Assembly: GCA_022819945.1 (NCBI GenBank)
Contig: JAJEGI010000108.1
Coordinates: forward strand, 136,880 to 200,879
Source: Candidatus Poribacteria bacterium
GTDB lineage: Bacteria; Poribacteria; WGA-4E; WGA-3G
Length of the DNA stretch: 64,000 nucleotides
Direction: 5' to 3'
A program made the translations under genes and the position numbers. Below, in pieces: positions 1 to 13,282 of this stretch (its first letter is position 1; the number at the start of each line of letters is the position of its first letter). A model generated the notes under the pieces. The model was given only the letters and a program-made list of their open reading frames with translations. It was not told the origin of the DNA and searched no databases.

Positions 1-78
1 CATGCAATGTTACATTGGTGCAACATTTTTCCCATAGAAATACGACACCGTCTTTCGCTGAGAAAACAGAGCTAACAT

Positions 79-107
79 TTGACATTACACCGCAAAAATG
101 GTATCAT
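79..107 (+). promoter_or_regulatory. sigma70-type promoter of the nuo operon
   Basis: TTGACA at 79-84 and TATCAT at 102-107 are separated by 17 bases. That is a perfect -35 box and a 5/6 -10 box. Transcription would start near 114, leaving a leader of about 155 bases before nuoD. The placement implies nuoD is the first gene of this transcript. Confidence 0.7.
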
Positions 108-271
108 ATATAGTGGTAAAGTCTAAAAATAGAAGGAAACGCGTAAGTCCTATCTAAAAAGAAACATAGCTTGGAACGAAGTGGAAAGCGGATTTAAGAG
201 ATGACCGTGAAAACTTGGATCCCGTTGTTTAACCGCAAGGTAAGTTAGAAAAACGTTGCAGCACCTACATT

Positions 272-1477
272 ATGGAAAGTACACAACAAACTGAAAGCAA
301 AATTATAGAACTAAAACCGTTCGCCGATGAGATGGTCGTGAATATGGGCCCTCAGCATCCAAGTACACACGGTGTGTTACGCTTGGAATTGAAATTGGAT
401 GGTGAGATCGTCCGGGAAGCAATTCCACACATCGGTTACCTGCATCGCTGTTTTGAGAAGCATTCCGAAAATCTCTCTTACCCCCAAATCATCCCGTTCA
501 CTGACCGAATGGATTACGTGGCGGCGATGAACCAGAATTGGGGATTTTGTCTCGCTGTTGAGAAGTTGTTGGCAGCGGATGAAAGCAAGGAATTCGAGGT
601 GCCGGAGCGAGCAGAATACTTGCGGGTACTTATCTGTGAACTAAACCGTATCGCCAGCCACCTCCTCTCTTTTGGAACCTATGGGATGGACCTCGGCGCA
701 GCTACCCCCTTCTTCTACTCCTTCCGGGATCGCGAACGGTTGCTTCTGCTTTTCGAGAAGGTCTGCGGGGCGCGCCTCACCTATAACTATATCCGTATTG
801 GCGGCGTATCTGAAATCATCCCTATGGAACCCGGTTCCATTGCCGAACAGAATTTCTTGGACGAGATTGAAGAATTTCTTGACTATTTTGAACCGATGAT
901 TGACGAATACAACGAACTCCTCACAAAAAACAGTATCTTCTGCGAGCGCACAATGGGAGTTGCTGTCATGTCCGCAGATATGGCACTGAGTTACGGGGCA
1001 ACCGGTCCAAATCTCCGCGGCTCCGGTGTGGATTGGGATCTTCGACGAGATGAACCTTATTCCATCTACGACAGATTTGACTTTGATGTACCTGTCGCTG
1101 TAGACATTCCAGAGATGGGAGCAGTTGTAGGTGACTGCTGGAGTCGATACAAAATCCGTATGGACGAGATGAAACAGTCTGTCCGAATTGTACGGCAGAT
1201 TTTAGCGGAAGGGCTGCCCGATGGTCCTGTGATGGCAGATTTGAAAGCCGTCCGTCCGCCGCAAGGTGAGATCTATTTCCGCAGTGAAGCACCGCGCGGT
1301 GAACTCGGATTCTATATCGTCAGTGACGGCACGCCGAAGCCAGTACGTCTCAAAGGACGATCTCCGTGCTTCAGTGCTTTGAGCGCGCTTCAAGAACTTA
1401 GTCGCGGTTTGATGGTAGCGGATATTATCGCAATTATTGGAAGCATCGACATCGTGATGGGAGAAGTGGACCGATAA
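272..1477 (+). CDS. nuoD: NADH-quinone oxidoreductase subunit D (49 kDa subunit)
   Basis: The 401-residue protein is the quinone-site subunit of the peripheral arm of respiratory complex I. It shows the family motif MGPQHPSTHGVLRLEL near residue 25, HIGYLHRCFEK, PFTDRMDYVAAMNQNWGF, and the C-terminal GEVDR ending. These are hallmarks of the 49 kDa/NuoD family derived from [NiFe] hydrogenase large subunits. Length is normal for a stand-alone NuoD rather than a NuoCD fusion. The ATG at 272 has no strong Shine-Dalgarno. It is the first gene after the promoter at 79-107, so nuoA, nuoB and nuoC must lie elsewhere. The next gene begins 24 bases downstream. Confidence 0.97.
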   Translation: MESTQQTESKIIELKPFADEMVVNMGPQHPSTHGVLRLELKLDGEIVREAIPHIGYLHRCFEKHSENLSYPQIIPFTDRMDYVAAMNQNWGFCLAVEKLLAADESKEFEVPERAEYLRVLICELNRIASHLLSFGTYGMDLGAATPFFYSFRDRERLLLLFEKVCGARLTYNYIRIGGVSEIIPMEPGSIAEQNFLDEIEEFLDYFEPMIDEYNELLTKNSIFCERTMGVAVMSADMALSYGATGPNLRGSGVDWDLRRDEPYSIYDRFDFDVPVAVDIPEMGAVVGDCWSRYKIRMDEMKQSVRIVRQILAEGLPDGPVMADLKAVRPPQGEIYFRSEAPRGELGFYIVSDGTPKPVRLKGRSPCFSALSALQELSRGLMVADIIAIIGSIDIVMGEVDR

Positions 1478-1501
1478 ATACACTCGATATGGAGTTGAAC
1501 G

Positions 1502-1813
1502 ATGAAAATTACAACCCAGAAGCAGGTAAACGTCTTAGTCTGGTCCATCGGTTTAATGCTTTGGAGCTGCCTATTGATAGACTTTTTAACTGACTTTGAA
1601 ATTATATCTGCAATAACTGGCTTAGTTCTCATCGGTTCCTTATGTTTATTCTATGTAGTGCATCAGTCTGAACCGGGGCAGCAAGTGTTTTCACACTTGC
1701 CTCAGAAATTGCTACCCGAAAACAAATTTTTGAGATGGATCTTCCTGTTAGCAGGAGGTATAGTAACTGTAGACTGGATTTTGGAAATTGGCGAATTTTT
1801 GCTTGCCGGATAA
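1502..1813 (+). CDS. small membrane protein of unknown function inside the nuo operon
   Basis: This 103-residue protein is not recognised. It has about three hydrophobic segments: VLVWSIGLMLWSCLLIDFL, a segment around ISAITGLVLIGSLCLFYVV, and a C-terminal FLRWIFLLAGGIVTVDWIL. A short charged loop (KLLPENK) lies between the second and third. GGAGTTG a few bases before the ATG supports the start. It sits 24 bases after nuoD and 9 bases before nuoH on the same strand, so it is very likely co-transcribed. It resembles no standard complex I subunit that I know. An accessory or assembly role is only inference from position. Confidence 0.8.
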   Translation: MKITTQKQVNVLVWSIGLMLWSCLLIDFLTDFEIISAITGLVLIGSLCLFYVVHQSEPGQQVFSHLPQKLLPENKFLRWIFLLAGGIVTVDWILEIGEFLLAG

Positions 1814-1822
1814 GGAGATTGG

Positions 1823-3091
1823 ATGTCGGATTTTAGGGCGATGTTTGCAAGCCCAGATTTCAATGTATCTGAAGGGTTCTTCCCCAATATAAACCTACAA
1901 GAGAAACTTAATTGGGCAGAGGAATTTATACAGAACGTTTTAATTCCGAGATTGCCGGAAGCGGTCGCTGCACATTTCCCTGTAGAGTTAGGCACAGTGC
2001 TCGTCATGTTCGCATGTGCAGGTATTTTCGTCGGAGTTGTCCCGTTACTTCCGTTATTTCTGGTGCTCGCAGAACGAAAAGTCGCCGCCCGTTTTCAAAA
2101 TCGGACGGGTCCGATGCGTGTCGGACCGTGGGGTACACTTCAAACGTTAGCCGACGGTATAAAACTTATTTTCAAAGAGGATTTTATCCCACCACAGGGT
2201 GATAAACTCCTTTTCCTGCTTGCCCCTTATGTCATTTTCGCCTGCTCTTTCGCTGTCTTCGCCGCTATTCCGTTCGGTGATGGAATCCCCATCCCTGGCG
2301 ATTTTAATATCGGAATTTTCTACATCATGGCGATCTCCTCTGTGATTGTTATGGGCGTGATTATGGCAGGTTGGTCCTCAAACAGCAAATGGTCATTGTT
2401 GGGGGCTTTACGCTCCGCCGCCCAGATCGTTAGTTATGAAATCCCGCTCGGTCTCTCTATCCTGACTGTCGTTATGCTCGTGGAAAGTTTAAGCATGACA
2501 CAAATTGTGGAAAGCCAATCTAACGGCGTTTTCAGTTGGCTCATCTTCCGAACACCGTTTACCTTTATCGCATTCTTTATCTTCTTTATTTCTTCTATCG
2601 CAGAGGTAAACCGAACACCTTTTGATTTGCCGGAAGCCGAGTCTGAAATCGTCGCAGGATTTCATACTGAGTATAGTGGCATGCGGTTTGCACTCTTCTT
2701 TATCGCTGAATACGCGAATATGTTCGCCATCAGCGCAATCGCCGTGACACTCTTCCTCGGCGGTTGGGAAGGTGCTTTACCGGGGTACGATATTCTCGGA
2801 GGTTTCCCCGGTTTCGTTATCAAAACTCTCACACTCGTTTTCTTGATGATGTGGCTAAGATGGACACTACCGCGCTTAAGAGTAGATCAATTAATGAATC
2901 TCTGCTGGAAGTACTTCATCCCGATAGCTTTCTTTAACATTTTAGGCACAGGTATCTGGGGGCTTATTTTCCCCGAAGATACGCTTGTTAGCACTATTAT
3001 CAGTTGTGCCATTATCTATATTGGGCTTATTGTGGCATATACGATTGCTGGACGAACGCTCGCGCAAAAGCCGGAACCACAACCGAGTTAG
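1823..3091 (+). CDS. nuoH: NADH-quinone oxidoreductase subunit H
   Basis: NuoH joins the membrane arm of complex I to the peripheral arm and lines the quinone channel. The protein has LAERKVAARFQNRTGPMRVG, FKEDFIPP, SYEIPLGLSIL and NRTPFDLPEAESEIVAGFHT, all signature segments of the ND1/NuoH family, plus multiple transmembrane helices. At 422 residues it is longer than the usual 320-350. The extra length is mainly an N-terminal extension of about 60 mostly polar residues before the first helix, plus a short polar tail. GGAG precedes the ATG at 1823. Confidence 0.97.
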   Translation: MSDFRAMFASPDFNVSEGFFPNINLQEKLNWAEEFIQNVLIPRLPEAVAAHFPVELGTVLVMFACAGIFVGVVPLLPLFLVLAERKVAARFQNRTGPMRVGPWGTLQTLADGIKLIFKEDFIPPQGDKLLFLLAPYVIFACSFAVFAAIPFGDGIPIPGDFNIGIFYIMAISSVIVMGVIMAGWSSNSKWSLLGALRSAAQIVSYEIPLGLSILTVVMLVESLSMTQIVESQSNGVFSWLIFRTPFTFIAFFIFFISSIAEVNRTPFDLPEAESEIVAGFHTEYSGMRFALFFIAEYANMFAISAIAVTLFLGGWEGALPGYDILGGFPGFVIKTLTLVFLMMWLRWTLPRLRVDQLMNLCWKYFIPIAFFNILGTGIWGLIFPEDTLVSTIISCAIIYIGLIVAYTIAGRTLAQKPEPQPS

Positions 3092-3159
3092 GTTTAAACA
3101 AAACCGAGGTACGGATTGCCTACATAAGTTAGGATTCATTGTCAAATGGAGGTGAGATG

Positions 3160-3678
3160 ATGAATGCTGTCATGGGAATTTTGCGAAGCACGAAGCAGGA
3201 AAAAATCGCATGGGTTAGAAAACAATTACCTATCATTCTTATAATTTTGCTTATCACAGCGGACAACATGGTTACGCACAGTATCAGTGGGCACTGGGTG
3301 CCTATTTTGGGATTCGTTTTAGGAGCAAGTCTAATGTGCTTCGGTTTCTTCCAAGTATTTCCACTGTTCCGTGAAATAAGAATTAAGGAGGTAGCAGGAC
3401 GAGAAAAAATCGTATGGATCTGTGGACTTTCGCTATTAATCTCCGGAGGTGTGATCGTGGTTCTGAACAATTCAATAGCGTTGGTCTTTAACGTTCAGTG
3501 GCTGTATGCTTCGTGGGGATCTATCGTTTTCGGTTTAGGCTTGATATGTATCGGTTACTGGATGCCGACACTGTTCAGCGAACTATTCAAAGACGATCGT
3601 AAGTGGCAATTTATGGGGATCTTTTTCCACAGTCTACTGCTTGTCTCGGTAATCTTTAAATTTGGATTTGGCTGGTAA
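3160..3678 (+). CDS. membrane protein of unknown function inside the nuo operon
   Basis: The protein has about 172 residues and four or five hydrophobic segments, for example LPIILIILLITADNMV, WVPILGFVLGASLMCFGFF, IVWICGLSLLISGGVIVVL and a C-terminal IFFHSLLLVSVIFKFGFGW. I do not recognise the family. The start is set at 3160 because GGAGGT at 3148-3153 lies 6 bases upstream; an ATG at 3157 and a TTG at 3139 are in frame but fit worse. It lies between nuoH and nuoI, spaced 68 and 32 bases. Like the orphan gene between nuoD and nuoH, it may be a lineage-specific accessory of complex I. That is inference from position. Confidence 0.8.
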   Translation: MNAVMGILRSTKQEKIAWVRKQLPIILIILLITADNMVTHSISGHWVPILGFVLGASLMCFGFFQVFPLFREIRIKEVAGREKIVWICGLSLLISGGVIVVLNNSIALVFNVQWLYASWGSIVFGLGLICIGYWMPTLFSELFKDDRKWQFMGIFFHSLLLVSVIFKFGFGW

Positions 3679-3710
3679 GAGAAACTACAGATTCACAAGG
3701 AACATTTGTT

Positions 3711-4430
3711 ATGGATAGGTATTTACGAAACATCTACAGAGGCGTTTACACCGTACTCGTCGGAATGCGGGTGACAATCCGGCAGTTCTTTCAACCGAAT
3801 GTTACACATCAATACCCGTACGAACACGACTATGAAAGGAAGCGGAACGTCCGAGAGATTCCGAAGGGATATCGCGGGCAGCTCTATAACCGCACTGAAG
3901 ACTGTATCGGATGTAAAAAGTGCGAAATGATCTGTCCAGTCGATTGCATTATGATTGACGCGACTAAACTCCCGAAAGGTGAACAACTCTGGGATAGTAT
4001 GAACGTCGTTCATCTCAAGGACGGACGCGAAATCATCGGCATCATTGAAGGTGATGAGAAAAAGATAAAATCGGAAGATTCAATAACGCTCACGAATATC
4101 ACCTCTCGCCAAGGTACGCAGGAAGTCATAGATCGCCTTGAAGCATCAGGCGATGAGAATCGAACCCAGACCTTTTCAAGTGACGAAATATTACGGGTTG
4201 TTACGCGAAACCCTGTCGTTTTTTACCTTGACAAGTTCGATATCGATATGTCCCTGTGTATGTATTGTGGACTTTGTACCGAAGTCTGTCCGACAGAATG
4301 CCTCACAATGAAAGATACACTTGAAGGAATCGAGTACTCCAAATTCGATCGATCAGACCTCATCTTCAGTTTTGATAAGCAGGAGATGTATGGTAAAGGT
4401 AATACCGAAGAAGTGAATGCAGCGGATTAG
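3711..4430 (+). CDS. nuoI: NADH-quinone oxidoreductase subunit I with an inserted domain
   Basis: This is the ferredoxin-like subunit that carries electrons to the quinone-proximal cluster of complex I. Two 4Fe-4S motifs are visible: C65-x2-C68-x2-C71-x3-C75-P and C183-x2-C186-x2-C189-x3-C193-P. In typical NuoI the first cysteines of the two motifs are about 40 residues apart; here they are 118 apart. This leaves about 80 extra residues between the clusters, including VVHLKDGREIIGIIEGDEKK, which reads like a small beta-rich domain. The protein is 239 residues against a usual 160-180. The reading frame is open throughout and both flanks are conserved, so the insertion looks genuine rather than an error. 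Confidence 0.95.
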   Translation: MDRYLRNIYRGVYTVLVGMRVTIRQFFQPNVTHQYPYEHDYERKRNVREIPKGYRGQLYNRTEDCIGCKKCEMICPVDCIMIDATKLPKGEQLWDSMNVVHLKDGREIIGIIEGDEKKIKSEDSITLTNITSRQGTQEVIDRLEASGDENRTQTFSSDEILRVVTRNPVVFYLDKFDIDMSLCMYCGLCTEVCPTECLTMKDTLEGIEYSKFDRSDLIFSFDKQEMYGKGNTEEVNAAD

Positions 4431-4626
4431 CATGTTCATGACGCAGAAACCTGTGTGGAAAACTTAATTTCACCAAACAAGGTTTCCGTGCTTTGCCTGA
4501 CAACCGTAAAAAACTGAAAAATACTGGCAGGAATCAGCAGCACTGCAACAACGGCAGCAGTGCGGATTTGAGAAGAGGAGCTGCACGCCAAGTAACCTTG
4601 ACAATCGCTTGCGCCAGCTTAAAAAT

Positions 4627-5145
4627 ATGGAATTTGCGCTTAAAAACTTTATTTTTTACGGATTCGCGCTTATGACAGTCGCCTCGGCACTCCTTGTCGT
4701 CACAGTGCGAAACATCGTCCACGCGGCGTTTTCGTTGATGGTGACGCTCTTCGGTATCGCTGGGCTTTACGTCTTCTTACAGGCTGATTTCCTTGCCGCA
4801 ACACAAGTGATCGTCTACGTCGGCGGTATCCTTGTCCTCATCTTATTCGGTGTCATGATGACAAGCGGTCGCTTGGAGATGCGGATTCATATTGAACGTG
4901 GACAGTTGCTACTCGGTGGTGTTGTCTCCTTGGCACTTCTTACGCTGCTATTGACAGTTATCGCCAATACACCCGCGTGGAAAAATCTCACCGATGACGG
5001 CACAGAATTTCCACCAACAACCAAGCGTATTGGTGAACTGATCCTTGATGGACCGTTCCTCCTTCCGTTTGAGGTTGTCTCCGTACTGCTGTTAGTCGCG
5101 TTAATCGGAGCCGCCCTGATTTCCCGAAAGGAGGTTAGGGAGTAA
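4627..5145 (+). CDS. nuoJ: NADH-quinone oxidoreductase subunit J
   Basis: NuoJ/ND6-type membrane subunit of complex I, about 172 residues with five predicted helices. The segments NIVHAAFSLMVTLFGIAGLY and FLAATQVIVYVGGILVLILF are characteristic; the second contains the pi-bulge helix typical of this subunit. The start is taken at the ATG at 4627; an in-frame TTG at 4609 would add six residues. The gene follows a 196-base gap after nuoI in which I see no supportable gene. It ends one base before nuoK. Confidence 0.95.
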   Translation: MEFALKNFIFYGFALMTVASALLVVTVRNIVHAAFSLMVTLFGIAGLYVFLQADFLAATQVIVYVGGILVLILFGVMMTSGRLEMRIHIERGQLLLGGVVSLALLTLLLTVIANTPAWKNLTDDGTEFPPTTKRIGELILDGPFLLPFEVVSVLLLVALIGAALISRKEVRE

Positions 5146-5146
5146 A

Positions 5147-5455
5147 ATGACCTTACAACACTATCTCGTTATCAGTGCAATTCTGTTCACGTTCGGTATT
5201 TTCGCTGTCTTGACGCGTCGGAACGCCATCAGTATTTTGATGGGTATTGAACTTATTCTTAATTCGTGTAATCTGAACTTCGCCGCATTCTCGCGTTTTA
5301 TGACACCGCCAGAGGACATCAGCGGACAAATCATCGCAATTTTTGGGATTGTGCTTGCCGCAGCGGAAGCCGCCGTCTTTTTAGCGATTATCCTCGCTAT
5401 CTATCGTGAATTCGGTAGTATACGTCCAGACGAAGTAGATACTTTGAAAGGTTGA
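5147..5455 (+). CDS. nuoK: NADH-quinone oxidoreductase subunit K
   Basis: NuoK/ND4L, a 102-residue three-helix membrane subunit that forms part of the E-channel of complex I. The two conserved membrane glutamates are visible in MGIELILNSCNLNFAAF and in LAAAEAAVFLAII. The ATG lies immediately after the nuoJ stop, and nuoJ ends in GGAGGTTAGGGAG, which serves as its ribosome binding site. Length and composition are normal. Confidence 0.96.
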   Translation: MTLQHYLVISAILFTFGIFAVLTRRNAISILMGIELILNSCNLNFAAFSRFMTPPEDISGQIIAIFGIVLAAAEAAVFLAIILAIYREFGSIRPDEVDTLKG

Positions 5456-5460
5456 AATAG

Positions 5461-5553
5461 TTGTCAGTTATCAGTTATCAGTTAAAAAAGGGCTCTGAAG
5501 TCCCAAATCCGTCTTAACCAATAACCGAGAACTGATAACCGAAAACTAATAAT
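5461..5553. repeat. small inverted-repeat element between nuoK and nuoL
   Basis: Tandem TTATCAGTT units at 5468-5483 are answered by AACTGATAA at 5530-5538, with further imperfect pairing outside. The element can fold into a stem with a loop of about 50 bases. It breaks the otherwise tight nuo gene spacing with a 121-base gap. It may be a MITE-like palindrome or a processing site; the sequence alone does not decide. Confidence 0.55.
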
Positions 5554-5576
5554 AGGAAGGCTTAAACGTTAGAAAT

Positions 5577-7814
5577 ATGATTGTACCCCTAATAAGTATC
5601 ATCTTGCTTTGCCCTCTTGCAGCGTTTGCGGTTTTCGGGCTTTTCAGCTTGGCGAATCGGCGTTTCCCCCGACAGGACTATCTATCCACTGTGGCAATGC
5701 TTGCCGCACTCGTCTGTTCATTCTTGCTCTTGCGAGAGGTGGTCCCCACTCCAGAACCACACACTGTTAACTGGATATCACTCGGCGGTGTCACCTTCTC
5801 TATGGGCTTCTACTTGGACAGCGTCACGGTAATCATGCTGATTGTTGTCACACTTGTCAGCAGCCTCGTCCATATCTTTTCTATGGGCTACATGCACGGT
5901 GATCCGAGGTATCCACGATTCTTCGCTTACCTATCGCTCTTCTCCTTCTCAATGTTATTTCTGGTTGTGTCGGATAACCTGCTCGGTATCTATATCGGTT
6001 GGGAACTCGTCGGACTCTGCTCCTATCTACTCATCGGCTTCTGGTTTGAAAAGGACTCCGCTGCGAATGCATGTAAAAAAGCGTTCTTGACAACACGCGT
6101 CGGTGATGTCGGCATGTTCATCGGTATGATGATGCTCTTCACCAAATTTCAGACGCTCTCACTCTACGGAGAAGGCGGTATCTTTGCCCAGGCCGCTGCG
6201 CAATTAAGCACAGCCGATATGGTATGGCTCTCTATCGCAGGGGTACTCATCTTTTGCGGTGCCATTGGTAAATCCGCGCAGATGCCGCTCCATACATGGC
6301 TCCCCGATGCAATGGAAGGTCCCACACCCGTCAGTGCGCTGATTCATGCTGCCACAATGGTCGCCGCTGGTGTCTATCTCACGGCTCGGATGTTCCCGAT
6401 CTTGACAGAAACCTCGTCTCTGGTCATCGCATACGTCGGTGGTATCACGGCGATCATCGCCGCGACGATTGCTATCGTTCGGTTCGACATCAAGCGGGTC
6501 TTGGCATATTCCACAATCAGTCAATTGGGATACATGATGCTTGCGATTGGTGCTGGCAGTTATGTCGCTGGACTCTTTCACCTTACGACCCACGCCTTTT
6601 TCAAGGCACTGCTTTTCCTCGGTTCCGGTAGCGTCATTCACGCCTTCCACGCCATGCACGCACACGCGCATGATGATGAACACGAACACGCGCATGAACA
6701 CGAACACGGCGACCACGATGCCCCTGGACATGAACACGGTGAAGATTCTGATTCAGGACATATCCTCGGTTCTGAGATTCCGCCAGATCAGGATATGCGG
6801 AATATGGGCGGACTCCGCCGCAAAATGCCGATTACTTTTGTAACGATGCTCATCGCAACACTGTCTATCTCTGGCGTGCCGTTCATCTTTTCAGGATTCT
6901 GGAGTAAAGATAAAATTTTAGCTGGTGTGCTTGAACGAGCTATGGAATGGAACTCAGTACACCATTACTTGCTGTTCGTAATGACACTCCTTGCTGCTGG
7001 AATTACAGCGTTCTATATGTTCCGCCTGATTTTCATGACCTTTTTCGGTGAACCGCGCAATCAAGAGATGCACGAGATGGCACACGAATCTCCACTATCA
7101 ATGACGGTGCCGCTTATCGTCTTGGCAATACTGAGTTTTCCCGTCGTGAATACACTCTGGTTCAACAAAGACTATGTAAAACCACCACCACAACCCCATC
7201 TTCACGCGCCGCAACATGCATACCTTGCACCTGACAGTAAAACGGGTGGACAGAGCGTTGCCCTATCACTTTTTGGTGTTTCTGAGGCAGTGGCAGCGGA
7301 AGAAGAAGGTGGACACGATACACACGCCGACGACGGGCACCACGGACACGGTCCCGCACACACGATCGCAATGGTACTATCTATTATCGTCGCCGGGTCA
7401 GGTATATTCCTCTCATGGCTGTTCTACCATAGGCGAACTTTGTCTGCTGAATCCGTCGCAACGACCTTTCGACCCATTTACAACCTGTTCTGGCACAAAT
7501 ACTACTTCGATGAGTTTTATGACGGTGTGCTGGTCGCGCTGACGGTGTGGAAATCACGGCTTTTCGCGCAATTTGATGGTAGTGTCGTCGATGGAATTGT
7601 CAATGGTGTCGGAACGGTAACACGAGACATCCTCGCTGCCTTCGTAGGGATTTTCGATAACCGTGTGGTTGATGGTCTCGTCAACCGCGTCGCTCAGGTC
7701 ACGTGGGCAATCGGCGGAAAAGTCCGCCGAATTCAGACAGGCGCGATTCAGACGTATCTTTTCGTCGTGCTGGCAGGGATTGTGTTGTTAATCTTAATTT
7801 TCCGGGCGTTGTAG
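5577..7814 (+). CDS. nuoL: NADH-quinone oxidoreductase subunit L with histidine-rich insert
   Basis: Proton-pumping antiporter-like subunit of complex I. Signature segments include WELVGLCSYLLIGFWF, GKSAQMPLHTWLPDAMEGPT, SALIHAATMVAAGVYL and LTTHAFFKALLFLGSGSVIH. At 745 residues it is longer than the usual 610-660. One cause is an insert after HAFHAMH, about residues 362-395, with roughly a dozen His residues among Asp and Glu, ending before DMRNMGGLRRKMP. A second His-rich cytoplasm- or periplasm-exposed loop occurs near residues 575-600. The C-terminal lateral-helix region (FDGSVVDGIVNGVGTVTRD) is retained. Confidence 0.96.
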   Translation: MIVPLISIILLCPLAAFAVFGLFSLANRRFPRQDYLSTVAMLAALVCSFLLLREVVPTPEPHTVNWISLGGVTFSMGFYLDSVTVIMLIVVTLVSSLVHIFSMGYMHGDPRYPRFFAYLSLFSFSMLFLVVSDNLLGIYIGWELVGLCSYLLIGFWFEKDSAANACKKAFLTTRVGDVGMFIGMMMLFTKFQTLSLYGEGGIFAQAAAQLSTADMVWLSIAGVLIFCGAIGKSAQMPLHTWLPDAMEGPTPVSALIHAATMVAAGVYLTARMFPILTETSSLVIAYVGGITAIIAATIAIVRFDIKRVLAYSTISQLGYMMLAIGAGSYVAGLFHLTTHAFFKALLFLGSGSVIHAFHAMHAHAHDDEHEHAHEHEHGDHDAPGHEHGEDSDSGHILGSEIPPDQDMRNMGGLRRKMPITFVTMLIATLSISGVPFIFSGFWSKDKILAGVLERAMEWNSVHHYLLFVMTLLAAGITAFYMFRLIFMTFFGEPRNQEMHEMAHESPLSMTVPLIVLAILSFPVVNTLWFNKDYVKPPPQPHLHAPQHAYLAPDSKTGGQSVALSLFGVSEAVAAEEEGGHDTHADDGHHGHGPAHTIAMVLSIIVAGSGIFLSWLFYHRRTLSAESVATTFRPIYNLFWHKYYFDEFYDGVLVALTVWKSRLFAQFDGSVVDGIVNGVGTVTRDILAAFVGIFDNRVVDGLVNRVAQVTWAIGGKVRRIQTGAIQTYLFVVLAGIVLLILIFRAL

Positions 7815-7850
7815 CTGCCCTTTTGATGGGATAAGGAGGATTCCCACGAG

Positions 7851-9362
7851 ATGTTATTGTCCCTAATGATTTTTATCCCGTTACTCGGGATGGTTGCTGT
7901 TTTACTTCTGCCGCGTGAGTCGGAGGAACTTATTAAACGTGCTACGCTCCTCTTTACACTCATTCCACTCGCGCTTGCAGTGTACTTATTCATAGCCTAC
8001 GACCGATCAACTGCAGGAACACAGTACGTCGTTAACGTTCCTTGGATTGAAGCATTCAACATCCAATATCACATCGGTATTGATGGGCTTAGCGTGACAC
8101 TCCTGCTTCTCACAGCACTCTTAGGCCCGATCTGTGTTATCGCTTCGTGGCGAAACATTGAAAAGGGGATCAAGGCGTATATGGCTTTGTTCCTGCTGCT
8201 TGAGACAGGGATGCTCGGCTTCTTCGCGGCGTTAGATCTTTTCTTGTTCTATGTCTTCTTTGAACTCACGCTACTACCGATGTATTTCCTGATCGGTGTA
8301 TGGGGTGGACCGCGTCGCGAATACGCTGCTATTAAGTTCTTCCTCTATACCCTCTTCGGGAGTGTGTTAATGTTGGTCGCAATGATAGCCGTCTATCTCA
8401 ACAGCGGCGATCCGGGGGCGCGGACATTCGATATTCCGACACTCATTGCATTAGCCTCAACAGCAGGACACGCCCTTAACGATCTAAACTTCCAGATCTG
8501 GGTATTCCTCGGTTTCTTTATCGGATTTGCCGTTAAAGTCCCGATTTTTCCCTTCCACACCTGGCTCCCCGATGCACACGTCGAAGCACCGACTGCTATT
8601 AGTGTTATCCTTGCAGGTATCCTCTTAAAGATGGGAACTTACGGACTGGTGCGGATAAACATGGCAATGTTCCCGCAAGGGTTAGACCACTTTACGAACG
8701 GAGTAGGTTTCTGGGGCAATAGTCTCGCACTTCTTGGGTTTATCAATATCGTCTACGGTTCCTTCTGCGCATTGGCACAAACCGACTTTAAGAAATTGGT
8801 GGCGTATTCGAGTATTGGGCACATGGGATTCGTTATTTTAGGGCTTGCCGCTCGAAACGACAGCGGTATCACTGGTGCGATCCTCCAGATGTTTAACCAC
8901 GGTGTCATCAGTGCGATGCTCTTCCTACTCGTCGGCGTTCTCTACGATAGGGCACACCACCGTGAAATCAACGGTTTTGGCGGCTTGGGAAGTAGAATGC
9001 CAATCTATACAGGCATCACGACGCTCGCGTTTATGGCTTCTCTGGGACTACCCGGCTTGAGTGGATTCGTCGGAGAGGCACTCTCCCTACTCGGTGCTTA
9101 TGACAAATTCAAGATGCTGACCATCCTGTCTACAATCGGTATTGTCGTTGGGGCTGCATACTTCCTCTGGACACTGCAAAGGGTCTTCTTAGGGACACTT
9201 AACCCGAAATATGAAGAGCTCCCAGAAATCAATGGACGTGAAATTCTGACACTGGTGCCGCTCGGAATTCTAACCATCGTACTCGGTGTCTGGCCCAACT
9301 TCGCTATTGATATGTTCAGAGAATCGGTTACCAATCTCATAGATGTCCTGAACGCGATATAG
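7851..9362 (+). CDS. nuoM: NADH-quinone oxidoreductase subunit M
   Basis: Second antiporter-like membrane subunit of complex I, 503 residues. The key glutamate lies in FFELTLLPMYFLIGVWGG, and the channel lysine region is GFAVKVPIFPFHTWLPDAHV. KKLVAYSSIGHMGFVILG and MFNHGVISAMLFLLVGVLYD also match the family. AAGGAGG about 10 bases before the ATG supports the start. It lies 36 bases after nuoL and 20 bases before nuoN, consistent with one operon. Confidence 0.97.
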   Translation: MLLSLMIFIPLLGMVAVLLLPRESEELIKRATLLFTLIPLALAVYLFIAYDRSTAGTQYVVNVPWIEAFNIQYHIGIDGLSVTLLLLTALLGPICVIASWRNIEKGIKAYMALFLLLETGMLGFFAALDLFLFYVFFELTLLPMYFLIGVWGGPRREYAAIKFFLYTLFGSVLMLVAMIAVYLNSGDPGARTFDIPTLIALASTAGHALNDLNFQIWVFLGFFIGFAVKVPIFPFHTWLPDAHVEAPTAISVILAGILLKMGTYGLVRINMAMFPQGLDHFTNGVGFWGNSLALLGFINIVYGSFCALAQTDFKKLVAYSSIGHMGFVILGLAARNDSGITGAILQMFNHGVISAMLFLLVGVLYDRAHHREINGFGGLGSRMPIYTGITTLAFMASLGLPGLSGFVGEALSLLGAYDKFKMLTILSTIGIVVGAAYFLWTLQRVFLGTLNPKYEELPEINGREILTLVPLGILTIVLGVWPNFAIDMFRESVTNLIDVLNAI

Positions 9363-9382
9363 GAGGTTCAAGCAAAGAAAGT

Positions 9383-10873
9383 ATGCAACCCTTAAGCAAT
9401 ATTGAAAGCCTCCTCTATTTCAGTCCAGAAATTCTACTCGTAATTTTTGCTGCTGCCGTTATTATTCTTGATCTCGTGGTGAAAGATAGAGAGAGTGTCG
9501 CAGTTGCATATCTTTCCCTCGTAGGATGTCTCTGCACATTTGCCGCCGTCCTTTTCACCCACTTCTCTTTCGGCGATGAAGGGCCTGTCTCCCTCTTTCT
9601 GGGGATGATCCGACTCGACGTGTTTTCCAGTTTCTTCAAGGTTCTACTGCTGCTCGCAACTGCTGCTACGATTCTCTTTTCACTCCGTTCCGAGGAACTT
9701 GACGCACGTCTGAAAGGCGAATACTACGCACTCCTGTTAGCCATCACCTTCGGCATGTTCCTCATGGCATCGTCAACGAACCTCCTGATGATATTCATCT
9801 CACTGGAGACGGTAAGCCTCACCTCCTATATCCTCGCCGGGTTCTTGACACATAGTCCCCGTTCAAGTGAAGCCGCTTTCAAATACATCACCTATGGCGC
9901 AGTCGCATCTGGAACAATGCTTTTCGGACTTTCGCTCCTATTCGGAATGGCAGGGACAGGTGATCTGGCGCAAATCAGCGGGCGGCTCACGGAACTCCTC
10001 GCAGCTGGGGAGATCGCGCCACTTGCCGTGCTGATTGCAATAACTTTTGTTCTTGCAGGTGTCGGCTACAAAATAGCCTCTGTGCCGTTTCACATGTGGT
10101 CCCCCGATGTTTACGAAGGTGCTCCTATCCCGATAACCGCCTTTTTGTCTGTCGCTTCAAAATCCGCAGGGTTCGCCCTATTCATTAGGTTCTTCTACGC
10201 CGGGTTTGGCAGCACCGAACTGATGCAAGCCGTTGATTGGCCCTTTATGTTGGCTATCGTCTCCGCATTGACGATGACTGTCGGAAATCTTGCAGCGCTC
10301 CCTCAACAGAATGTGAAACGTCTATTAGCGTATTCAAGCATCGCACACGGTGGATATCTATTGATGGGCGGTGTCTTGCTTACCTCCCAAGGTGTCGGTG
10401 CGATTCTCTTCTACCTTGTCGTCTACCTCTTTATGAACTTGGGGGCATTTTATGTTGTTGTCCTCATCGCGAATGAAGTAGGTAGTGAAATGGTTGAAGG
10501 TTACCGCGGGCTCTCCTCACGCGCTCCCTTAGTTGCTTGGGCAATGGTTATTTTCCTCGTTTCTCTCGCGGGGATCCCGCCATTTGCCGGTTTCTTCGGA
10601 AAATGGATCCTCTTTACGGCTGTGCTTGAGCAAGGATATTACTGGCTCGCGTTGGTCGGCTTACTAAATAGTGTGGTCTCTCTCTATTACTATGCGCGCA
10701 TCGTCAAAGCGATGTTCTTTGAAGACGCTGGCGAGGAAACCACAAATGTCTCCTTTTCTACCGGCACTTTCGCGCTGTTGAGTGTATTTGTAATCCCTAC
10801 AATCTTCATCGGATTCATCAATATTTTCTATACCTTCTCCAATATCTCAGTCTCCGTAATCCCGATGCAGTAG
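9383..10873 (+). CDS. nuoN: NADH-quinone oxidoreductase subunit N
   Basis: Third antiporter-like subunit of complex I, 496 residues and many transmembrane helices. Recognisable parts are FISLETVSLTSYILAGF, YKIASVPFHMWSPDVYEGAP with the channel lysine, SKSAGFALFIRFFY, and VKRLLAYSSIAHGGYLLMGG. AGGAGG precedes the ATG at about the right distance. It is the last nuo gene. The next 75 bases contain the tRNA promoter and no clear terminator. Confidence 0.97.
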   Translation: MQPLSNIESLLYFSPEILLVIFAAAVIILDLVVKDRESVAVAYLSLVGCLCTFAAVLFTHFSFGDEGPVSLFLGMIRLDVFSSFFKVLLLLATAATILFSLRSEELDARLKGEYYALLLAITFGMFLMASSTNLLMIFISLETVSLTSYILAGFLTHSPRSSEAAFKYITYGAVASGTMLFGLSLLFGMAGTGDLAQISGRLTELLAAGEIAPLAVLIAITFVLAGVGYKIASVPFHMWSPDVYEGAPIPITAFLSVASKSAGFALFIRFFYAGFGSTELMQAVDWPFMLAIVSALTMTVGNLAALPQQNVKRLLAYSSIAHGGYLLMGGVLLTSQGVGAILFYLVVYLFMNLGAFYVVVLIANEVGSEMVEGYRGLSSRAPLVAWAMVIFLVSLAGIPPFAGFFGKWILFTAVLEQGYYWLALVGLLNSVVSLYYYARIVKAMFFEDAGEETTNVSFSTGTFALLSVFVIPTIFIGFINIFYTFSNISVSVIPMQ

Positions 10874-10886
10874 ATAATTGAAAAAA

Positions 10887-10915
10887 TTGACAAATACGAT
10901 TTTTTAAGATATACT
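10887..10915 (+). promoter_or_regulatory. strong promoter for the tRNA-Gln/tRNA-Glu unit
   Basis: TTGACA at 10887-10892 and TATACT at 10910-10915 have a 17-base spacer, close to sigma70 consensus. The predicted start near 10922 lies about 25 bases before tRNA-Gln. Confidence 0.75.
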
Positions 10916-10947
10916 TAAAATGTAGCGCACCTACAAATGCGCGTCAA

Positions 10948-11018
10948 TGCCCGGTCGTCTAATGGTAGGACGCATGGCTCTGGACCATGTAGTGAAGGTT
11001 CGAGTCCTTCCCGGGCAG
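10948..11018 (+). tRNA. tRNA-Gln (CTG)
   Basis: A full cloverleaf can be drawn. The acceptor pairs TGCCCGG with CCGGGCA. The D stem is GTCT/GGAC. The anticodon stem CATGG/CCATG encloses the loop CTCTGGA, giving anticodon CTG. The T arm is GAAGG-TTCGAGT-CCTTC. The U1-A72 pair is typical of glutamine tRNA. The CCA end is not encoded. Confidence 0.93.
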
Positions 11019-11043
11019 TTCTCTCTATTATTTCTATCAGTGT

Positions 11044-11115
11044 GCCGCTATCGTCTAGGGGTTAGGACGGGTGGTTCTCAGCCACCAAACCGGGGTTCGA
11101 ATCCCCGTAGCGGTA
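11044..11115 (+). tRNA. tRNA-Glu (CTC)
   Basis: The acceptor GCCGCTA pairs with TAGCGGT, with a G-U closing pair. The anticodon stem GGTGG/CCACC encloses TTCTCAG, giving anticodon CTC. The T arm is CGGGG-TTCGAAT-CCCCG. The TCGTCTAGGGGTTAGGAC D region is typical of tRNA-Glu. It lies 25 bases after tRNA-Gln and is probably co-transcribed. No CCA is encoded. Confidence 0.93.
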
Positions 11116-11130
11116 TCTCTTCACTTGTAA

Positions 11131-11155
11131 GGGCGGGCGTGCCTACTACCCGCCC
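11131..11155 (+). terminator. possible terminator after the tRNA pair
   Basis: GGGCGGG at 11131-11137 pairs with CCCGCCC at 11149-11155 around an 11-base loop. The following ATTGTCTTAAG has no good T-run, so this is a weak candidate or a plain hairpin. Confidence 0.4.
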
Positions 11156-11219
11156 ATTGTCTTAAGCGCGCGAATGTCTTCTGAGTAAAAAAAAGCATAT
11201 ACATTGGAGAAACACACGA

Positions 11220-13282
<2,063 letters not shown>

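Follow-up and report, generated by a model that had tools for sequence, protein, structure and literature searches.

A predicted Sm-like barrel between the two iron-sulfur motifs of NuoI in a Poribacterial complex I encoded without an NADH module

The gene at positions 3711..4430 of a 64,000-nucleotide stretch of DNA from the sponge-associated Poribacteria (the whole stretch, hereafter the window) encodes the NuoI subunit of complex I with about 79 extra residues. It belongs to an operon encoding an 11-subunit complex I without the NADH module, and the extra residues are predicted to form a five-stranded Sm/YgdR-like barrel between the two cluster motifs. We see an even chance that this barrel serves, as an integral part of NuoI, to dock or clamp a soluble donor other than NADH; the anatomy of the insert is far surer than this role. 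The features of the gene are as follows.

3711..4430, + strand: nuoI with inserted barrel domain (ATG start, 239 aa, direct reading)
3903..3938, + strand: first 4Fe-4S motif, residues 65-76, CIGCKKCEMICP (from sequence)
3981..4220, + strand: extra segment, about residues 91-170, putative tip of the inter-cluster hairpin, ends approximate
4002..4205, + strand: predicted Sm/YgdR-like barrel core, residues 98-165 (from predicted structures and structural matches)
4104..4166, + strand: barrel-internal loop of about 19-21 residues (132-152), low pLDDT (from models and alignment)
4257..4292, + strand: second 4Fe-4S motif, residues 183-194, CMYCGLCTEVCP (from sequence)

Both CxxCxxCxxxCP motifs of the NuoI/NdhI family are present (residues 65-76 and 183-194), with cysteines 65/68/71/75 in the first and 183/186/189/193 in the second, and none of the eight cluster cysteines varies across 23 aligned relatives. 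The first cysteines of the two motifs are 118 residues apart; the equivalent distance is 40 (63 to 103) in T. elongatus NdhI and 39, read off the alignment, in plant mitochondrial NDUFS8 (7ar7_I). When aligned to 7ar7_I, the query halves 15-90 and 175-234 match, and 84 query residues stand against 5 between them. A preliminary description of this DNA had called the gene NuoI, with first cysteines 118 residues apart instead of about 40 and an insert of about 80 residues. The name is borne out by the two Fe-S motifs, the position in the nuo operon and the Fe-S fold of the model, and comparison with the two solved relatives confirmed both the spacing and the size of the insert. The NCBIfam NuoI model TIGR01971 scored 86.1 bits in two separate stretches, under its cut-off of 113.05, because the insert splits the match, and automatic naming by this model would fail.

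The operon runs nuoA-B-C, nuoD, a 103-aa ORF, nuoH, a 179-aa ORF, nuoI, J, K, L, M and N.

L110 6236..7854: nuoA, nuoB and nuoC, just before the window start
272..1477, + strand: nuoD of the 11-subunit operon (PF00346)
1502..1813, + strand: 103-aa hydrophobic protein (by eye) in the nuoD-nuoH gap, no family match; in 11/58 loci, some loci stopping before this position
1823..3091, + strand: nuoH (PF00146)
3139..3678, + strand: 179-aa hydrophobic protein (by eye) in the nuoH-nuoI gap, TTG start uncertain, no family match above cut-off; in 8/58 loci, some again stopping before this position
4609..5145, + strand: nuoJ (PF00499)
5147..5455, + strand: nuoK (PF00420)
5577..7814, + strand: nuoL (PF00361 and PF00662, complex I chain 5 N-terminus)
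7851..9362, + strand: nuoM (PF00361; M assigned by position)
9383..10873, + strand: nuoN, final operon gene (PF00361; N assigned by position)

The 11-subunit gene set nuoABCDHIJKLMN is complete in this one operon. We found no nuoE, nuoF or nuoG in the operon of the window genome, nor in any of 58 genome-contig loci with flanks up to 6 kb. Across these loci nuoH lies upstream of nuoI in 58/58 and nuoJ downstream in 57/58; in one locus no nuo gene is visible after nuoI.

The insert is widespread in the phylum. All 58 loci carry it and all are from Poribacteria, with a motif spacing of 118 in 47, 117 in 3 and 99 in 8; having been searched with patterns from the insert-bearing protein (close relatives), they are not an unbiased sample. 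Spacings of 99, 100, 104 and 112 occur in further genomes of the phylum. The genome searches with insert profiles covered Poribacteria, and a profile of the barrel core (A4) recovered an insert-bearing NuoI from 70 of 81 searched genomes, spanning six families (another search of the phylum returned 84 genomes). Related nuoI genes, where the preliminary description had proposed to look for the same insert, do contain it. Insert-bearing assemblies include single-record chromosomes (OX639973, OX638352 and OY282374), which, together with the presence of the insert in 58/58 loci, rules out the assembly artefact that the same description had named as the way its reading might fail, and likewise a frameshift. 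Among genomes without an A4 match, NuoI of G034 is represented by residues 195-239 alone, preceding a contig end, and G051, G055, G060 and G061 also have no NuoD match at E 0.001. No A4 barrel match was obtained in five genomes of family f5 (G050, G054, G056, G057 and G058), nor in G006, where only an EFG-type NuoD was found. The last genome belongs to the same genus and is 93% complete; its EFG-less NuoD and insert NuoI were both not found, by true loss or an assembly gap.

Substitution rates indicate that the insert is under purifying selection: dN/dS is about 0.12, compared with 0.03 in the Fe-S body (from 123 of 1431 pairs among 54 sequences, pairs with pS up to 0.45). When the insert was cut out and a tree built from the Fe-S body alone (22 rows), the 15 rows that carry the insert grouped as one clade (97/95) and f5 fell outside; the root was set by distant paralogues and the tool issued a long-branch warning. 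The insert was probably gained once, in the ancestor of most of the group, though a loss in f5 is also possible.

AlphaFold2 applied to full-length NuoI gave a model of low confidence (pLDDT 57.5), with strands at residues 98-102, 107-113, 124-131, 153-156 and 160-165. The model of the isolated domain from a spacing-99 relative (L072, 33-row alignment) reached pLDDT 76.3 and shows five strands, the last two linked by a short helical turn. The segment VVHLKDGREIIGIIEGDEKK, which had been read as a compact beta domain, starts this predicted five-stranded barrel (isolated model pLDDT 76), in agreement with that reading. The loop at 132-152 is present in the spacing-117/118 forms and missing from the spacing-99 forms. 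When the isolated barrel was submitted to Foldseek, almost all of the best 50 rows were proteins of the YgdR, Hfq or Lsm type or small putative lipoproteins, with a best E of 0.009. The best VIA row was 7zs1 (Z 6.5, 65 residues, 4.7 A), and YgdR 3fif_B reached Z 6.0 over 54 residues at 2.3 A; a Z near 6 can mean merely a common arrangement. The five-stranded, strongly bent barrel of the Sm/Lsm/Hfq proteins is seen in the predicted structure. In the Sm/Lsm/Hfq fold an N-terminal helix precedes strand 1; this helix is absent here, residues 1-9 of the domain model being coil. Pfam and NCBIfam scans of the insert returned nothing above cut-off (DUF903 matched at E 0.15), and for this reason the name "Sm-like" rests on the predicted fold and not on sequence. 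A PDB sequence search with the insert profile gave chance-level Sm matches alone (6tfl E 0.85; 4xq3 E 0.43).

The Fe-S body appears intact in the model despite the insert. In the low-confidence full-length model it superposes on NdhI with VIA Z 11.2 over 90 residues at 2.5 A. The first five matches are all NdhI chains of photosynthetic complexes (Z 10.9-11.2, 87-90 residues, 2.2-2.6 A), in a near tie with plant mitochondrial complex I at rank 6 (Z 10.2), and two more such chains come only at ranks 32 (Z 9.5) and 41 (Z 9.2). NdhI is therefore not singled out by the structural comparison.

The window genome (G000) also holds genes for a second complex I, with nuoABCD at C3 (contig end) and E-F-G-H-J together with L, M and N at C38. 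Pfam supports the names E, F, G, H, J and L; NCBIfam matches fell under cut-off for NuoF (495.6 of 558.65) and NuoG (399.2 of 470.05), with the Pfam domains above theirs. A lone NuoI at C89, with a spacing of 48 and no insert, would by elimination serve the EFG-containing C38 complex. The single-contig genome G044 has two widely separated nuo operons. The insert NuoI is in the one without EFG (L135), and in the other (L142) EFG are clustered with A-D, H, J, K, L and M, with no NuoI in the 19 kb stretch. Family f5 (at least G050, G054, G056 and G057) has an EFG-less operon without nuoI (L137-L139, L143); the matching NuoI, of spacing 51, is encoded away from it, and in four of the five genomes (G054, G056, G057 and G058) lies 1.8-2.8 kb from a canonical NuoI.

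Several other NuoI copies and related frames were encountered. A canonical-type NuoI lies away from any nuo operon at L111 9731..10288 (- strand). The f5 genome G054 has two different NuoI genes 2.8 kb apart (L131 10065..13885, - strand); the frames between them are moaA-like and thiC-like (named by eye), and a donor gene is not among them. At L119 (G038:C13) an EFG-containing complex I operon has its own NuoI, more divergent than the others. The NuoG profile also matched frames of some 900 aa, each containing one in-frame TGA, at G000:C65:18372-20060 and at comparable positions in many relatives; these are perhaps, at a guess, selenocysteine formate dehydrogenases.

The location of the insert can be compared with photosynthetic complex I. 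Lys86, Lys89 and Lys91 of T. elongatus NdhI contact ferredoxin (PMC7021789, in the part available), and by residue numbering they fall between the two cluster motifs. The long NdhI hairpin extends into the cytoplasm with ferredoxin and NdhV bound to opposite sides, NdhV being joined to NdhS (PMC6992706, in part), and the SH3-like NdhS occupies a groove of NdhI (PMC7021789, in part). From the residue numbers it follows that the inter-motif stretch should be the described NdhI hairpin, and the Poribacterial barrel would take the place of its tip. The ferredoxin-contacting lysine triad of NdhI is not kept, this stretch being replaced by the insert. The concern, raised in the preliminary description, that an insertion here would fall in a tightly packed electron path loses its ground, because the hairpin projects into solvent in photosynthetic complex I, as described in the same partly available sources, and because the operon has no NuoEFG to cover NuoI. 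By analogy, the insert would be solvent-exposed in the Poribacterial complex.

In the reading that we prefer, a small barrel has been inserted into the hairpin between the Fe-S motifs of NuoI in an EFG-less complex I, at what in the ferredoxin-using photosynthetic complex is an exposed donor-docking element. The barrel would dock or clamp a soluble one-electron donor, ferredoxin being the first candidate, and would do within NuoI the job that the separate NdhS and NdhV do around the NdhI hairpin; electrons would then pass from the donor through N6a, N6b and N2 to quinone. We infer both the docking and the identity of the donor from the following evidence: the placement on a hairpin known for donor contact (PMC7021789 and PMC6992706, both in part); an EFG-less operon, together with a second NuoI of the same genome from which the insert is missing; the conservation of the insert under purifying selection (dN/dS 0.12); the predicted barrel fold, and the NdhI chains at the top of the structural matches to the whole model; and POR_N-family genes (2-oxoacid:ferredoxin oxidoreductase type) in 60/60 genomes, also found in 10/14 controls, which make a ferredoxin pool plausible.

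Several observations speak against donor docking. Acidic ferredoxin is usually recruited by basic patches (PMC6992706, in part), whereas the insert is mostly acidic like ferredoxin itself, with a median net charge of -6 (range -10 to +3 in 59 aligned segments with flanks), and the NdhI lysine triad is absent. Were ferredoxin the donor, it would have to be bound through other surfaces; the donor may also be a basic one. Family f5 combines an EFG-less operon with a 51-spacing NuoI that has no insert, which shows that a complex lacking EFG can do without the barrel. The genome has nuoEFG genes at another site, and their products might in principle work with both complexes. The likeness to NdhI is not specific given the further NdhI chains at ranks 32 and 41, and the full-length model, at its pLDDT of 57.5, does not fix the orientation of the barrel. 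No donor gene was seen by eye near nuoI among the ORFs of L110 or of window positions 1-12,000.

Among the alternatives, a structural or assembly role survives best, although we hold it to be somewhat unlikely. Here the barrel would brace the top of the peripheral arm, shield N6a where NuoG is missing, hold an accessory subunit or aid assembly, and would make no contact with a donor. Lineage-specific, surface-adding extensions are known in complex I; in E. coli a 94-residue NuoG loop and C-terminal tails merely add inter-subunit surface (PMC8357420, in part). The linkers of the insert are also better conserved than the barrel, as expected for a docked element: identity to the window is 87% in f1 rows and 59% in other rows for flank 83-97, 90% and 62% for flank 166-176, and 78% and 46% for barrel residues 98-165. 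On the other side, the barrel sits on the known donor-contact hairpin, and no accessory gene is constant beside nuoI, the 103-aa and 179-aa ORFs occurring in 11/58 and 8/58 loci.

The occurrence of the barrel in other proteins bears on whether it may be a tolerated passenger, that is, a transplantable in-frame insert kept in an exposed hairpin with no catalytic function.

L144 8552..9247 (G038:C21:58698-59246), + strand: predicted lipoprotein with in-frame NuoI-type barrel
L177 874..2427, - strand: f2 KDGS..G.I barrel-repeat protein
L178 1233..1862, - strand: f2 KDGS..G.I barrel-repeat protein
L179 1044..2597, - strand: f2 KDGS..G.I barrel-repeat protein
L180 1517..2167, + strand: f2 KDGS..G.I barrel-repeat protein

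The core profile gives a single strong match per genome except in G038, where a second lies in an unrelated predicted lipoprotein (A3 profile E 2.3e-9; the A4 match at E 4.7e-21 is circular, A4 including that sequence). Aligned with hhalign, the NuoI inserts alone matched the lipoprotein segment at a probability of 98%; the E-values of such pairwise hhalign comparisons have no database calibration. This copy of the domain has an LSM match at E 0.06. The G038 lipoprotein has 54 residues between 'IGKK' and 'RVFFSY', and orthologues at 29 other loci have 4 to 9; together they form a natural with/without pair. Weak profile matches (up to E 10) were inspected at five places and comprised four KDGS-repeat proteins and one unrelated 707-aa frame. 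The KDGS proteins, from f2 genomes G036 and G039, are secreted-looking, have one to five barrel repeats and are distant relatives of the insert. Their likeness lies in profile-profile similarity (hhalign probability 96%), and they differ in that the repeats, single or in tandem, follow a probable signal peptide (by eye), with no redox motif seen. L179 passes NCBIfam NF047433 (65.6 bits, cut-off 43), which the NuoI insert does not match, and has a match below cut-off (E 6e-7) to TIGR02603, a model of the CxxCH heme domain.

Palindromic in-frame elements of the RPE type place the same coding insert in-frame in unrelated genes and are present in many copies per genome. The Poribacterial domain resembles them in lying in-frame in unrelated genes (NuoI and one lipoprotein) and differs in copy number, with no more than two strong copies in any genome, for which reason we have for now rejected a spreading element. 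In the diheme cytochrome c Kustd1711 of the anammox bacterium Kuenenia (PDB 7zs0-7zs2), an acidic Hfq-like 'nose domain' is inserted in a cytochrome domain (PMC11791136, in part). It shares with the NuoI barrel its acidic character and its insertion in an electron-transfer domain, but the host is a cytochrome c and sequence identity to the NuoI barrel is 14%. As judged from models, several proteins, two or more of them redox proteins, appear to have acquired a small barrel in a hairpin or loop. These barrels may share an ancestor, and their distribution suggests a transplantable domain recurring in redox proteins.

The passenger reading gains from the in-frame lipoprotein copy missing from the orthologues at 29 other loci, from an insert evolving about 4x faster than the Fe-S body and from the variable presence of the barrel-internal loop. 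We nevertheless consider it clearly unlikely: the insert has been kept in 70/81 genomes across six families and in 58/58 loci (the latter a biased sample), its dN/dS of about 0.12 points to purifying selection, and the copy number gives no sign of spread. That the NuoEFG of the second operon form a shared NADH module docking on both complexes, with the barrel touching NuoG, is highly improbable: NuoEFG are present in the genome and E. coli provides a precedent in which NuoG contacts NuoI and extra elements widen the interface between both modules (PMC8357420, in part), but NuoEFG are clustered with the second complex (H, J, L, M and N in G000; A-D, H, J, K, L and M in G044), and the second NuoI, assigned to the EFG complex by elimination, has no insert.

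While 11-subunit complex I and Sm-like barrels are already known, a barrel between the N6a and N6b motifs of NuoI is apparently new; the literature searched (partial, mainly open-access) held no prior description of one. Its presence shows that the complex I core tolerates and keeps a domain insertion between these motifs. The insert is a marker by which the two types of complex I in the same organism can be told apart. Which donor supplies electrons to bacterial 11-subunit complex I has been described as an open question (PMC11238625, in part), and under donor docking a barrel on the first Fe-S subunit would be a natural bait for finding that donor.

Among known proteins, the YgdR/DUF903 lipoprotein domain, Hfq and Lsm share the predicted five-stranded barrel. 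The NuoI barrel differs from them in being inserted instead of free-standing and in giving no significant Pfam match; compared with Sm, Lsm and Hfq it is a single inserted copy of mostly negative net charge. Homology of the insert to NdhS is not supported: NdhS gave no Pfam match to it and was not among the best 50 structural rows for the barrel, where its absence is not probative. The 11-subunit complex I of Desulfitobacterium hafniense, compared by gene set and not by NuoI sequence, has the same genes without nuoE, F and G (PMC11238625, in part); the Poribacterial NuoI has an extra hairpin domain, and the Poribacterial genome additionally keeps an EFG-containing complex I. Photosynthetic NDH-1 likewise has no NADH module, two 4Fe-4S clusters in NdhI and a hairpin that serves as donor contact, and its separate small SH3-like barrel, NdhS, adjoins NdhI (PMC7021789 and PMC6992706, in part). 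In contrast, the Poribacterial barrel is part of NuoI itself and would lie on the hairpin, and the ferredoxin-contacting lysines are absent. By analogy, the barrel may be functionally equivalent to NdhS/NdhV. That a transplantable Sm-like barrel became the fused donor-docking subunit of an NADH-free complex I, independently of the NdhS/NdhV solution, we put forward tentatively, as possible but on balance doubtful.
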